A DNA stretch of 64,000 bases from Exiguobacterium sp. 9-2. GTDB lineage: Bacteria > Bacillota > Bacilli > Exiguobacteriales > Exiguobacteriaceae. Every line of letters starts with the position of its first letter. Position 1 is the first letter of the stretch. The DNA lies in assembly GCF_036287235.1 (NCBI RefSeq), contig NZ_CP142850.1, positions 2,757,336-2,821,335 on the forward strand, in the 5' to 3' direction. The notes under the pieces were generated by a model. That model had not been told where the DNA came from. It saw only the letters and a list, made by a program, of their open reading frames with translations, and did not search any database. The translations under genes and the position numbers were made by a program. This document shows, piece after piece, positions 14,448 to 19,455 of this stretch.

Positions 14448-15125
14448 ATGAAACGTTTTCTAGCATCGATCGCGACAGCAGCCTTAGTGGTTTCAGGTTT
14501 TACATCAGTGGGTACAGGTAAAGTTGAAGCAGCAACAGTCACGAAAGTCAAGATCACGGACAACGGTCTTCGTGTTCGGACAGCTCCTTCTACGAAAGCA
14601 AGCATCGTCGGGAAAGTCAACGCTGGTCAAGTCTTTACATACAAAGGCAAATCAGGCAGCTGGACAAAAATCTCATACGGCGGTAAAACACGTTATGTCT
14701 TCTCACAATACACAAAGACATACAAATCATCTTCAAGCGCTAAAAAATCAACAAGCACATCTTCTAAACGGACGAAAATCCTGAACGAAGCAGCAAAACA
14801 TAAAGGTACACCATACGTATGGGGCGGAACAACGACTCGTGGATTCGACTGCTCTGGTTTCACAAGCTACGTTTACAAGAAAGCGGCTGGTAAAACATTG
14901 CCACGTACGTCTTCTTCACAATATTCTTCTTCTAAAAAAGTCAGTGTTTCAAGCGTACAACCAGGAGATCTTGTCTTCTTCTCACACGGTAGCGGCATTC
15001 AACACGTCGGGATCGCAACAAGTAAGTCAAGCATGGTTAACTCAGAAACAGGTGGCGTTAAATACTCAAGCTTCAAATCAGGGTACTGGGGTTCACGCCT
15101 TGTCGGCGCAGGATCTTACCTTTAA
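14448..15125 (+). CDS. Secreted SH3b-NlpC/P60 peptidoglycan endopeptidase
   Basis: A 225-residue secreted cell-wall hydrolase. A signal peptide (residues 1-28, ending VEAA) is followed by one bacterial SH3 domain (about 33-88, LRVRTAPSTKASIVGKV), a Ser/Lys-rich linker (93-110) and an NlpC/P60 domain (111-225) with catalytic Cys135 (FDCSGF), His186 (IQHVGI) and a probable third residue Asn198 where many relatives have His. Such enzymes cut the gamma-D-Glu-diaminopimelate bond of stem peptides. GGAGG is at 14433. It is inserted, on the opposite strand, between glpX and rho, which are adjacent in Bacillus. Confidence 0.92.
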   Translation: MKRFLASIATAALVVSGFTSVGTGKVEAATVTKVKITDNGLRVRTAPSTKASIVGKVNAGQVFTYKGKSGSWTKISYGGKTRYVFSQYTKTYKSSSSAKKSTSTSSKRTKILNEAAKHKGTPYVWGGTTTRGFDCSGFTSYVYKKAAGKTLPRTSSSQYSSSKKVSVSSVQPGDLVFFSHGSGIQHVGIATSKSSMVNSETGGVKYSSFKSGYWGSRLVGAGSYL

Positions 15126-15524: not shown

Positions 15525-16490
15525 TTACTTAATGACAAGCTTCGGTTTTTTCTTAAACGAGTGAATGCCTTCAACAAAGCGAACCGTTCCGGATTTCGCA
15601 CGCATGACGACAGAGTGTGTCTGACCGCCTTGTGCCGTGAACTGGACACCTTTCATCAACTCACTGTCCGTGACCCCTGTCGCAGCAAAGATACAGTCGT
15701 CTCCTGCGACGAGATCGTCCATCATGAGAATCTTCGATGGATCTTCGATGCCCATCTTCTTACAACGTTCGATCTCGGCATCGTCTGCTGGTAACAAGCG
15801 CCCTTGGAGCTCTCCACCGAGACACTTCAAGGCAACGGCAGCAAGAACGCCTTCCGGTGCGCCACCTGAACCGAGCAAGATATCAATCCCTGTATGCGGG
15901 AACGCCGTATTGATCGCACCAGCAACGTCACCGTCACCAATCAAGCGAATCCGTGCCCCTGTTGCCCGAATCCGTTGAATGATTTCTTCATGACGTTCGC
16001 GATCAAGGATCGAGACGACGACGTCTTCGATTTCCTTGTTCTTCGCCTTTGCAACGGCTGCGATGTTTTCTTCAATCGTCGCATCCAGACTGATGTGTCC
16101 TGCTGCTTCTGGACCAACTGCAATCTTATCCATGTACATGTCCGGTGCATGGAGTAAATCTCCCGCATCCGCAACAGCGAGGACAGCAAGTGCGCCCCAT
16201 GTTCCTTTTGCGACGATATTCGTTCCTTCGAGCGGATCGACAGCGACGTCAAGTCGTGGTCCATACCCATTTCCTAGCTTTTCTCCAATGTAAAGCATCG
16301 GTGCTTCATCCATCTCGCCTTCCCCGATGACGACGGTTCCTTTCATCGGAATCGTATCGAAGACATCACGCATCGCGCTTGTTGCCGCATCATCCGCTTC
16401 ATTCTTCAATCCTTTTCCCATCCAGCGTGCAGAGGCAAGTGCTGCCGCCTCCGTGACGCGTACAAGTTCCATTGATAGACTTCTCTCCAT
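15525..16490 (-). CDS. glpX: Fructose-1,6-bisphosphatase, class II
   Basis: Dephosphorylates fructose 1,6-bisphosphate in gluconeogenesis. The 321-residue protein starts [17 protein letters not shown], the canonical GlpX N-terminus, after a GAGGGG site. Metal and substrate motifs are [23 protein letters not shown] and [10 protein letters not shown]. It lies 32 bases after murZ in the tal-murZ-glpX run and closes that unit with a strong terminator. Confidence 0.96.
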
Positions 16491-16522: not shown

Positions 16523-17770
16523 TCAAATCGTTTCACGCCATACGAGGGCGCCTAGTTCCTTCAACTTCTGATCAAATCGTTCGTAACTCTGGTCAAGCAC
16601 TTCTGCGTGGTGCAATGTCGTCTCCCCTGAAGCGAGAAGTCCCGCCAAGACAAGTGCTGCGCCACCGCGTGGATCTGGTGCCTCGATTTCCGTACCGAGT
16701 AAGGATTCGCCACCACGAATGATGATCGAAGCGTCTTCATGCGTGATTCGGGCGTTTAAGCGCCGCAACTCCTGTACATGTCGGAAACGTTGCGGGTACA
16801 ACTTATCGACAACGATACTCGCTCCTTTCGCTTGCAACAACGCTGCCGAGATGACAGGTTGTAGATCGCTTGGGAATCCACCGTAGTGGAAGACACGAAT
16901 ATCGACCGGCTTCGCCTCCTGGAATGTCGCCGTGACGGAATCATCTGTCACTTCGATCAACGCACCATACCGCTCGAGTTTTTGGATAACGCTCTCGAGA
17001 TGGAGCGGAATGACGTTATCGACGGTGACGCGCCCAAGTGCCGCGCCCATCGTCAAAAACGTTCCTGCTTCCATCCGGTCTGGAATCAAGGTATGCCGGC
17101 AACCACTCAGGCGTGAGACACCTTTGATTCGAATCTCATCCGTTCCTGCCCCTTTGACACTTGCCCCCATGTTCGTCAGCATCGTACTGACGTCGATGAC
17201 TTCTGGATCATAGGCAGCGTTTTCGATGACAGTCGTTCCTTCAGCGAAGACAGCGACGAGTAAAGCACTGATCGTCGCTCCGAATGACGGAAGATCGAGA
17301 TAGATTCGGTTTCCGACGAGACGGTCAACGCGCATGTAATGGACGCCCTGCTCGTTACGTACGGAAACACCGAGACGCTCCAGTGCTTTGATGTGTAAAT
17401 CAATCGGTCGTGGTCCGATGGCATAACCCCCAGGCAGACCGACGACTCCTTGTTTGAATCTGGCCGCCAGAACGCTCATAAGGTAGATCGATCCGCGTAA
17501 CTTGCGCGTCTCCGCACCAGTTAACGGCATCGATTCAACCCGACTTGGATCAATCGTCACCATATCGCCTTGACGTGTCACGACCGTGCCGAGCGTCTCT
17601 AAAATCTCGATCATTGTCGCGACGTCGCCAATTTCCGGCACGCCTTCTAGAATGACCGTCTGATCCGTCAGTAGAGCTGCAGCAAGACACGGAATGGCGC
17701 TTTGCTTCGAACCACTGATTGATACGGTTCCTTCTAGGCGTTGTTGCCCTACGATATGCAAAATGTCCAC
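16523..17770 (-). CDS. murZ: MurZ-type UDP-GlcNAc 1-carboxyvinyltransferase homologue, catalytic Cys replaced by Tyr
   Basis: A full-length (415-residue) EPSP-synthase-fold protein occupying the murZ (murAB) position between tal and glpX. The MurA family transfers enolpyruvate from PEP to UDP-GlcNAc, the first committed step of peptidoglycan synthesis. The family loop normally reads PGGC; here it is PGGYAIGPRPID, Tyr116 (codon TAT at 17423-17425). The substrate-binding Lys22 is kept but the next residue, usually Asn, is Gln23 (SGSKQSAIP). The Asp of GGFPSDLQ and the Arg of APDPRGGAALVLAGL are present, the latter with Pro where Leu is usual. There are no frameshifts or signs of decay. It may be inactive, altered or regulatory; another MurA is presumably encoded elsewhere. 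Confidence 0.9.
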   Translation of the reverse strand: MDILHIVGQQRLEGTVSISGSKQSAIPCLAAALLTDQTVILEGVPEIGDVATMIEILETLGTVVTRQGDMVTIDPSRVESMPLTGAETRKLRGSIYLMSVLAARFKQGVVGLPGGYAIGPRPIDLHIKALERLGVSVRNEQGVHYMRVDRLVGNRIYLDLPSFGATISALLVAVFAEGTTVIENAAYDPEVIDVSTMLTNMGASVKGAGTDEIRIKGVSRLSGCRHTLIPDRMEAGTFLTMGAALGRVTVDNVIPLHLESVIQKLERYGALIEVTDDSVTATFQEAKPVDIRVFHYGGFPSDLQPVISAALLQAKGASIVVDKLYPQRFRHVQELRRLNARITHEDASIIIRGGESLLGTEIEAPDPRGGAALVLAGLLASGETTLHHAEVLDQSYERFDQKLKELGALVWRETI

Positions 17771-17798: not shown

Positions 17799-18446
17799 TT
17801 ATTGCTGCGTTTTTTCCCAGTCCGCGAGGAACTTTTCAATTCCTTGCGTCGTGAGTGGGTGGTGTGTGAGTGACTCGATGACCGAGAATGGAATCGTCGC
17901 GATGTCTGCGCCCGCAAGAGCAGCGTTCGTCACGTGAACCGGGTTCCGGACCGATGCCGCAATGATTTGTGTCGGAATATCATGTACGACGAAAATTTGA
18001 GCAATCGTCTCGACGAGGCCCATTCCATCTTGACCGATGTCATCTAGACGACCGAGGAATGGTGATACGTATGTCGCACCAGCACGGGCTGCGAGTAATG
18101 CTTGGTTCGGATTGAAGATCAATGTGACGTTCGTCGTGATCTTCTCTTTTGAAAGTGCTGCGACCGCTTCGAGTCCGGCCGGAGTCATTGGAACCTTAAC
18201 CGTAATGTTCGGTGCGATCTGGGCAAGTTCCTTCCCTTCGCGAATCATTCCTTCTGCATCAAGCGCGATGACTTCAGCGCTGACAGAGACATCTCCGACG
18301 ATTTCACAGATTTCACGAAGTCTTGTATGGAAATCGACGCCCTCCTTAGCGACGAGCGATGGATTCGTCGTGACACCATCTAAAATCCCCATTTTATGTG
18401 CTTTCTTGATGTCCTCTACGTTTGCTGTGTCAATGAAAAATCTCAT
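17799..18446 (-). CDS. tal: Transaldolase, short type (FSA/YwjH-like)
   Basis: A 215-residue class I aldolase-type transaldolase of the pentose phosphate pathway. [16 protein letters not shown] and [13 protein letters not shown] are the N-terminal signatures; the Schiff-base lysine lies in [16 protein letters not shown]. The small form (about 215 residues) is shared with fructose-6-phosphate aldolases; transaldolase activity is the more likely role given the B. subtilis orthologue YwjH. It is followed by murZ after 28 bases. Confidence 0.92.
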
Positions 18447-18600: not shown

Positions 18601-19455
18601 TTAAGCTTTGTTGCTTGAACCGAACTCACGCATCTTACCGATGACAGTTTGTTTGATTGCTTCACGACCTGGTGCGATGAATACGCGTGGGTCATATGCT
18701 TCTGGTTTCTCAGCCAACACTTCACGAACGACTTTCGCGAATGAGATTTGGTTCTCTGTGTTAACGTTGATTTTTGAAGTTCCGAGTGAGATCGCTTTTT
18801 CGATATCGTGTGTCGGAATTCCAGTTCCACCGTGAAGAACGAGTGGGAGGTTTGTAGCGTCACGGATTTCTTCCATCTCTTTGAATCCGAGGTTTGGTTC
18901 ACCTTTGTATGGTCCGTGAACAGAACCGAGTGCAGGAGCAAGCGTGTCGATTCCAGTTTCTTTAACGATGCGTACACACTCGTCAAGTTTCGCGTACATG
19001 ACATCACCGATGACGTCGTCTTCTTGTCCACCAACTGTACCAACTTCCGCTTCAACTGAAACGCCTTTAGCGTGAGCGTATTCAACGACTGCTTTAGTTG
19101 TTTCGATGTTTGTGTCGATCGGGCTGTGCGAATCATCGATCATGACAGATGTAAATCCAGCGTCGATCGCTTCTTTACATTTTTCAACGCTCGAACCGTG
19201 GTCGAGGTGGATTGCGACTGGAACTGTTACTTTCATGTCGTGTACGAGACCTTCAACCATTTTCACGACAGTGTAGAATCCGCCCATGTGGCGTGCTGCA
19301 CCTTCAGATACTCCAAGGATAACTGGTGACTGCTCTTCTTGAGCCGCACCGAGAATCGCTTGTGTCCACTCGAGGTTGTTGATGTTGAATTGACCTACTG
19401 CATACTTACCTTCGAGAGCTTTGTTTAACATGTCTGTCATAGATACTAATGGCAT
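18601..19455 (-). CDS. fba: Fructose-bisphosphate aldolase, class II
   Basis: Zinc-dependent aldolase of glycolysis and gluconeogenesis; interconverts fructose 1,6-bisphosphate with dihydroxyacetone phosphate and glyceraldehyde 3-phosphate. The length of 284 residues is usual. Motifs: [12 protein letters not shown] with a zinc-binding His, [23 protein letters not shown] and [10 protein letters not shown]. It uses a noticeably preferred codon set, as expected for a highly expressed gene. It has its own promoter and terminator. Confidence 0.96.

Follow-up and report, generated by a model that had tools for sequence, protein, structure and literature searches.

Family-wide loss of the catalytic cysteine in MurZ of Exiguobacteriaceae and comparable losses in another Bacilli family

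Two MurA-type proteins are present in most Firmicutes (PMC12077105). In Listeria, deletion of murZ raises or stabilises MurA, acts downstream of ReoM, is non-additive with deletion of clpC and overcomes a lethal reoM allele (PMC7286690). Mutations in murZ recur among the suppressors of prkA loss (PMC8528326), and a prkA deletion is likewise suppressed by deletion of murZ (PMC8959180). MurAA of Enterococcus is protected when MurAB is lost, by a mechanism given as unknown; IreB binds both proteins, and a MurAA-2IreB-MurAB complex has been proposed (PMC12077105). Why loss of the second copy protects the first from proteolysis is stated to be unknown in PMC12077105 and PMC8528326. A crosslinking study in B. 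subtilis found MurAA-MurAB among the high-scoring paralogue dimers (PMC10090944). In Pseudomonas, MurA C117S is inactive, yet it keeps the essential activation of LpxC, and a substitution equivalent to C117S is said to trap MurA in a closed, product-bound form (PMC9995270).

MurZ of Exiguobacteriaceae resembles the MurZ/MurAB (MurA2) proteins of Bacillota (NF009470/PRK12830, TIGR01072) in its place between fsa and glpX, its tree clade (SH-aLRT 100), its predicted fold and most of its substrate residues. It differs from them in having Tyr instead of the catalytic Cys, in Gln23 and Asp188, in the absence of the Arg397-Gly398 pair and in a score below the PRK12830 cut-off. A natural Asp-type MurA occurs in Chlamydia and mycobacteria. 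To our knowledge, no replacement of the catalytic Cys of MurA by Tyr has been described.

The murZ gene of the window and its active site

The window is a stretch of 64,000 nucleotides from Exiguobacterium sp. 9-2, whose genome (G000, 3.06 Mb) is a single contig. The murZ gene lies in a conserved fba-fsa-murZ-glpX locus with the following features (E. coli numbering in brackets; the 199 references are defined below):

15525..16490, minus strand: glpX, class II fructose-bisphosphatase (TIGR00330), downstream neighbour, 32 bp from murZ
16523..17770, minus strand: murZ (murAB), coding sequence of 415 aa with GTG start, a paralogue in the MurA family that lacks the catalytic Cys
16586..16591, minus strand: codons 394-395, Gln-Ser in place of Arg-Gly (R397-G398), Arg-Gly in 199/199 references
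17207..17209, minus strand: codon 188, Asp in place of Glu, Glu in 199/199 references
17282..17284, minus strand: codon 163, Phe in place of Val
17423..17425, minus strand: codon 116, TAT (Tyr) in place of the catalytic Cys (C115)
17702..17707, minus strand: codons 22-23, AAG CAA, Lys-Gln in place of Lys-Asn (K22-N23)
17799..18446, minus strand: fsa, fructose-6-phosphate aldolase (TIGR00875), upstream neighbour, 28 bp from murZ
18601..19455, minus strand: fba, class II fructose-bisphosphate aldolase, part of the conserved locus

The sequence-only reading had described a full-length, undamaged MurZ homologue in the conserved murZ position, with Tyr116 in a PGGY loop and Gln in place of the active-site Asn. 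Reading the frame and the codons directly bears this out: the ORF is open over its full length, the loop around Tyr116 reads LPGGYAIGPRPID, and Lys-Gln occupies positions 22-23. The protein contains only two cysteines, Cys28 and Cys224. Both are located outside the loop and neither aligns with the catalytic position, which rules out another cysteine in the same place. Cys28 (codon 28, 17687-17689, minus strand) follows soon after Lys22-Gln23 and is found in 39/39 family rows (the query counted twice) and in 3/199 references. Residue 394 was equated with E. coli R397 through an alignment with the H. influenzae protein and the Cys117/Cys115 numbering in PDB titles. As to features of MurA membership, the catalytic Cys or Asp of the PGGx loop, Asn23 and the Arg397 equivalent are all absent from murZ.

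We found fsa and glpX on either side of murZ in the window and at 37/37 other family loci with wide flanks. Among the outgroup loci (L103-L121) both neighbours were present at 18/19, and L115 showed glpX only. Terminator-like stems lie between fba and fsa and after glpX; the scan returned 6 sites against a shuffle mean of 6.1, i.e. no excess. Between rho and glpX, on the opposite strand to glpX, an ORF of 225 aa (14448-15125, plus strand) carries bacterial SH3 and NlpC/P60 domains and is probably a cell-wall peptidase.

The genome contains three genes of the EPSP-synthase family, namely murZ, MurA and AroA. A second MurA with Cys, which the sequence-only reading had proposed to look for, is located beyond the window at G000:C1:2724675-2725886. 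It carries PGGC and Lys-Asn and is the sole Cys-bearing MurA of the genome.

Fixation, selection and history in Exiguobacteriaceae

The order searched comprises 38 genomes of one family in two genera (19 + 19). A murZ orthologue with an open frame was present in all of them, at 63-100% identity to the query. Residue 116 is Tyr in 38/38 genomes (TAT in 37, TAC in 1) and residue 23 is Gln in 38/38 (CAA in 19, CAG in 19), with Lys22 kept; this agreement rules out a sequencing error or chance. When the proteins were aligned, Tyr116, Gln23, Phe163, Ser168 and Asp188 were fixed in 39/39 rows (38 distinct proteins and the query). A MurA with PGGC and Lys-Asn accompanies murZ in 38/38 genomes (19/19 in each genus); for the sister-genus genome G022, where the MurA match is in two parts, the motifs were read from the part holding both. 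This split match (L325) belongs to an assembly marked as 8% contaminated and is likely an assembly fault. In the genus of the window's genome exactly three EPSP-synthase-family genes were found in 19/19 genomes. A plasmid search gave 139 records, every one below 60% identity.

For comparison, 241 distinct proteins were aligned, 38 from the family and 203 others. The latter were the top matches to the query or its relatives, MurA and MurZ mixed, and are not a random sample; 199 of these 203 keep both Cys and Lys-Asn. The four exceptions, all without Cys, are MurZ proteins of another Bacilli family, f17 (L175/L186, L191, L192 and L193). A scan of GTDB genomes gave a similar picture: among the best 80 loci, 3 were from Exiguobacterium (Tyr, Gln), and Cys and Lys-Asn were present in each of the remaining 77. 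In the open-access literature we recognised no Cys-less, inactive or pseudoenzyme MurA or MurZ among the matches listed.

We then defined 61 conserved columns as those at least 97% conserved in the 199 references, the four f17 exceptions having been set aside beforehand. Family MurZ departs in 16 of the 61. Fixed departures include N23Q, C116Y, V163F, N168S, E188D, T293V and G395S, so that the changes go beyond those in the sequence-only reading, with E188D, V163F and the Arg397-Gly398 pair added. Column 394 (E. coli R397) is Arg in 199/199 references and Q, D, K or N in the family. Tyr116 and Gln23 are fixed and residue 394 is not, which suggests that a new function depends on Tyr and Gln and can do without Arg397. 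Residues kept in family MurZ are Lys22, Arg92 (E. coli R91), Arg121 (R120), Asp124, Asp231, Asp302 (D305), Arg328 (R331), Asp366 (D369) and Arg368 (R371), as well as Ser162 and Gly164, which lie outside the 61 columns.

Between the two genera MurZ is 63-66% identical, compared to 83-87% for MurA. The dN/dS of murZ between the window's gene and five congeners was 0.029-0.076 and that of MurA in the same pairs 0.018-0.038; these values, from our own Nei-Gojobori script, are rough because synonymous sites are almost saturated in several of the comparisons. Within the same pair the value for murZ was at most about twice that for MurA, and in four of the five pairs it was the highest of five genes (murZ, glpX, fsa, fba, murA). 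The gene is under purifying selection, and a pseudogene is ruled out by these ratios and by the open frames in 38/38 genomes. In a tree of 86 rows, obtained by a quick search with SH-aLRT support only, the 9 rows of the family grouped together (100) within the clade of MurZ (100), apart from MurA. The stem branch of the family clade carries 1.64 changes per column. Rapid change followed by constraint suggests a change of role with renewed constraint afterwards.

Eroded murZ genes in a second Bacilli family

Parallel cases were found in family f17. Of its 23 genomes, 9 carry murZ at the fsa-murZ-glpX locus, 4 of them intact and 5 eroded; 14/23 have no murZ there. Absence in these 14 (among them G181, only 68% complete) means that strong hits adjoin no fsa or glpX. 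Flanks of about 1.5 kb were included for these hits as far as the contigs reached, and weak AroA-like hits were left out. In the intact genes (L187-L190) the motifs read PGGC and Lys-Asn. The eroded genes show the following changes:

L186 (G139): Lys22 to Arg, loop rebuilt
L191 (G193): R92G, C116Y, R121Y, R368H, with Tyr at the Cys position as in Exiguobacteriaceae
L192 (G190): K22A, N23K, R92W, C116G, R121H, R368E
L193 (G185): N23D, R92S, C116T, R328S, R368S, R394S
L335 (G184): 31% identity to the query, neither motif, frame of 424 residues

The eroded motifs thus differ from one another. Their frames are open, and the stops reported in three of them sit at or beside the natural end. The joining of L192 and L193 in the tree is flagged as possible long-branch attraction, and L335 is outside the tree. 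E188D is seen in all Exiguobacteriaceae rows and in 3/4 aligned eroded f17 proteins, possibly a convergent change. Of 18 further f17 loci 17 keep the Cys, the exception being L335; among these 17 the match of L334 does not cover positions 22-23. Three others of the 17, L341-L343, with only 26-27% identity, read AGGC. An additional MurA-type gene (L336-L340), outside the murZ locus and with both PGGC and Lys-Asn, is carried by five f17 genomes (G193, G139, G185, G183 and G159).

Scores against NCBIfam models do not reliably follow the state of the active site. MurZ of the window passes TIGR01072 (UDP-GlcNAc 1-carboxyvinyltransferase) with 452.7 bits against a cut-off of 392.7. It does not reach the PRK12830 (NF009470) equivalog cut-off of 552, with 491.8, nor does a sister-genus protein with 470.9. 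L191, L192 and L193 also stay below this cut-off, but the eroded L186 passes it at 571.1, and the cut-off is therefore no test of catalysis. These models are not reliable detectors of active-site erosion.

Taken together, the initial observation is confirmed and is wider than first noted: loss of the Cys in MurZ is family-wide and selectively maintained in Exiguobacteriaceae, and comparable losses occur elsewhere.

Possible roles of a MurZ without the catalytic cysteine

In a saturation editing study of E. coli MurA no substitution of C115 was recovered, which the authors consider possibly due to incomplete saturation and chance (PMC9842644). The least tolerant residues reported there are G114, C115, G118, R120, S162, G164, D231, R331, D369 and G398, although table and text conflict over the residue replacing G398, and a role in product release has been proposed for R397. 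Eight of these ten residues are kept in family MurZ according to this list; C115 and G398 are absent. Family MurZ thus retains most of the substrate-binding frame but lacks the residues linked to proton donation and to release of the product. From this we infer that turnover has probably been lost or crippled, which is our main argument. The sequence-only reading had also stated that a Cys-to-Asp change in the loop keeps activity. This holds in vitro, but Asp was among the C115 substitutions not recovered in the E. coli editing experiment (PMC9842644). The Asp-type MurA (C115D) resembles our case in that the loop Cys is replaced; unlike in the Asp-type, where activity is kept in vitro, the replacement here is Tyr and the Asn23 and Arg397 equivalents are changed as well.

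Structure prediction from the single sequence gave a pLDDT of 35.2. With 38 aligned sequences, the AlphaFold2 model reached a pLDDT of 93.5 and a pTM of 0.92, with low confidence (pLDDT <50) for loop residues 114-120 including Tyr116. MurA chains match this model at a TM of 0.89-0.98 in Foldseek, the best, with 50% identity, being chain A of the integrative MURA2-MURA1 model 9a7b; NikO is also among the structural neighbours. The MurA fold is thus predicted to be intact in family MurZ.

Listeria MurZ and Enterococcus MurAB are the same paralogue as the gene described here, and the window's genome carries ReoM (NF003997, 140 vs 91 bits), ReoY (PF08864), a PASTA kinase (NF033483, 668.9 vs 450) and a ClpC-like ATPase. 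The latter assignment is made from a Clp ATPase of 815 residues in which Clp_N and UVR motifs are present; it is encoded in the ctsR operon together with a McsB-like gene (below NCBIfam cut-offs). ReoM of the congener G006 has Thr at position 7, the residue phosphorylated in Listeria. In G000 reoY lies near aroA (C1:1847805-1848116 and 1849482-1850702). ReoM and ReoY are both present in 38/38 family genomes. As evidence for the pathway this co-occurrence is weak, and we abandoned it as proof, since both genes also occur in f17 genomes that have no murZ at the locus. Among the 22 f17 genomes searched (G181 left out) ReoM was found in 22 and ReoY in 21: both in 13/13 genomes without murZ at the locus, and ReoM in 9/9 and ReoY in 8/9 of those with murZ. 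Presence of murZ did not track with ReoM or ReoY in these 22 genomes, and MurZ is therefore not always needed where both occur. G184, with the most divergent murZ (L335), was the sole genome of the 22 without a ReoY match and had the weakest ReoM score. In the papers cited, tracking of murZ with the pathway is not a defining feature; its lack removes co-occurrence as support. A role of Exiguobacteriaceae MurZ in MurA turnover would accordingly be argued from precedent, not from co-occurrence.

Three readings had been offered on the basis of the sequence, namely altered catalysis, a different chemistry and a regulatory or scaffold paralogue of a second MurA, and our analysis favours the last. 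With moderate confidence we propose that this MurZ orthologue no longer carries out UDP-GlcNAc enolpyruvyl transfer and is kept as a non-catalytic, probably ligand-binding partner of the sole Cys-bearing MurA. MurZ would fold as a normal MurA and still bind a UDP-sugar, since most substrate-binding residues remain, and the PEP reaction would not run or not complete, because the Cys and the Arg397 equivalent are absent. The MurA-shaped protein would join MurA, perhaps along with ReoM, and contribute to the way in which ReoM, ReoY and ClpCP set the level of MurA, as reported for Listeria MurZ and Enterococcus MurAB. Such a partner or regulator may possibly act in the MurA turnover that these proteins control. 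The Enterococcus protein differs in that it is active in vitro (PMC12077105), whereas Exiguobacteriaceae MurZ is without the catalytic Cys. In this respect MurA C117S of P. aeruginosa is closer, being a Cys-less MurA whose essential regulatory function is separable from catalysis (PMC9995270); that protein is, however, a laboratory mutant of the species' MurA with LpxC as target, and here we are dealing with a natural, fixed variant of a paralogue.

A more detailed version of this proposal is tentative and, in all its parts, rather unlikely. According to it the family-fixed pseudoenzyme would be a UDP-sugar-loaded adaptor that presents MurA to ReoM, ReoY and ClpCP. Tyr would hold the ligand-bound, closed shape, the protein would report the supply of UDP-GlcNAc to proteolytic control, and pseudoenzymes would have arisen separately in at least one other Bacilli family.

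A point against the partner reading is that Lys22, Arg92, Arg121, Asp302, Arg328 and Arg368 are kept here and several of them are lost in the f17 cases, which, together with fixed Tyr and Gln, would also fit a changed chemistry. The main rival is that the protein is still active in enolpyruvyl transfer, but by another chemistry or to another acceptor. A Tyr phenol would then stand in for the Cys thiol, and Gln23 and Phe163 would reshape the sugar site to suit, for instance, a different UDP-sugar or a MurA reaction that runs slowly. In its favour are the residues just named, which are kept in the family rows together with Asp366, and the invariance of Tyr116 and Gln23, which a working active site would require. 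Enzymes of the MurA fold can moreover switch acceptor, NikO being a structural neighbour, and a bryophyte MurA has been reported to make EPSP (PMC11588093). However, the Arg397 equivalent varies even inside the family, no C115 replacement was recovered in E. coli (PMC9842644), and no biosynthetic partner gene is adjacent, the neighbours being central-carbon genes like those at the ordinary murZ loci examined. We judge this explanation unlikely.

Less probable still is a plain backup MurA, weakly active and with Tyr tolerated. The TIGR01072 equivalog score above cut-off and a fold that is predicted to be intact overall speak for it. Yet the sole four Cys-less proteins among the 203 from outside the family are visibly eroded, the Arg397-Gly398 equivalents are gone as well, and the E. 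coli editing data (PMC9842644) again show no C115 substitution. That MurA alone suffices and murZ is heading for loss would agree with its lower conservation between the genera, with its dN/dS being the highest in four of five pairs and with the mixture of intact, eroded and missing genes in f17, but appears very improbable given 38/38 intact frames despite near-saturated synonymous divergence, dN/dS values at most about twice those of MurA and five changed residues fixed in 39/39 rows.

A family of this kind is a warning that one can be misled by the automatic annotation as UDP-GlcNAc 1-carboxyvinyltransferase, and by the number of MurA copies counted in a genome. Exiguobacteriaceae offer a natural separation of function, in which the catalytic Cys of the second copy has been removed and the gene kept. 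If the Cys-less MurZ still drives the turnover of MurA, that role needs no catalysis.
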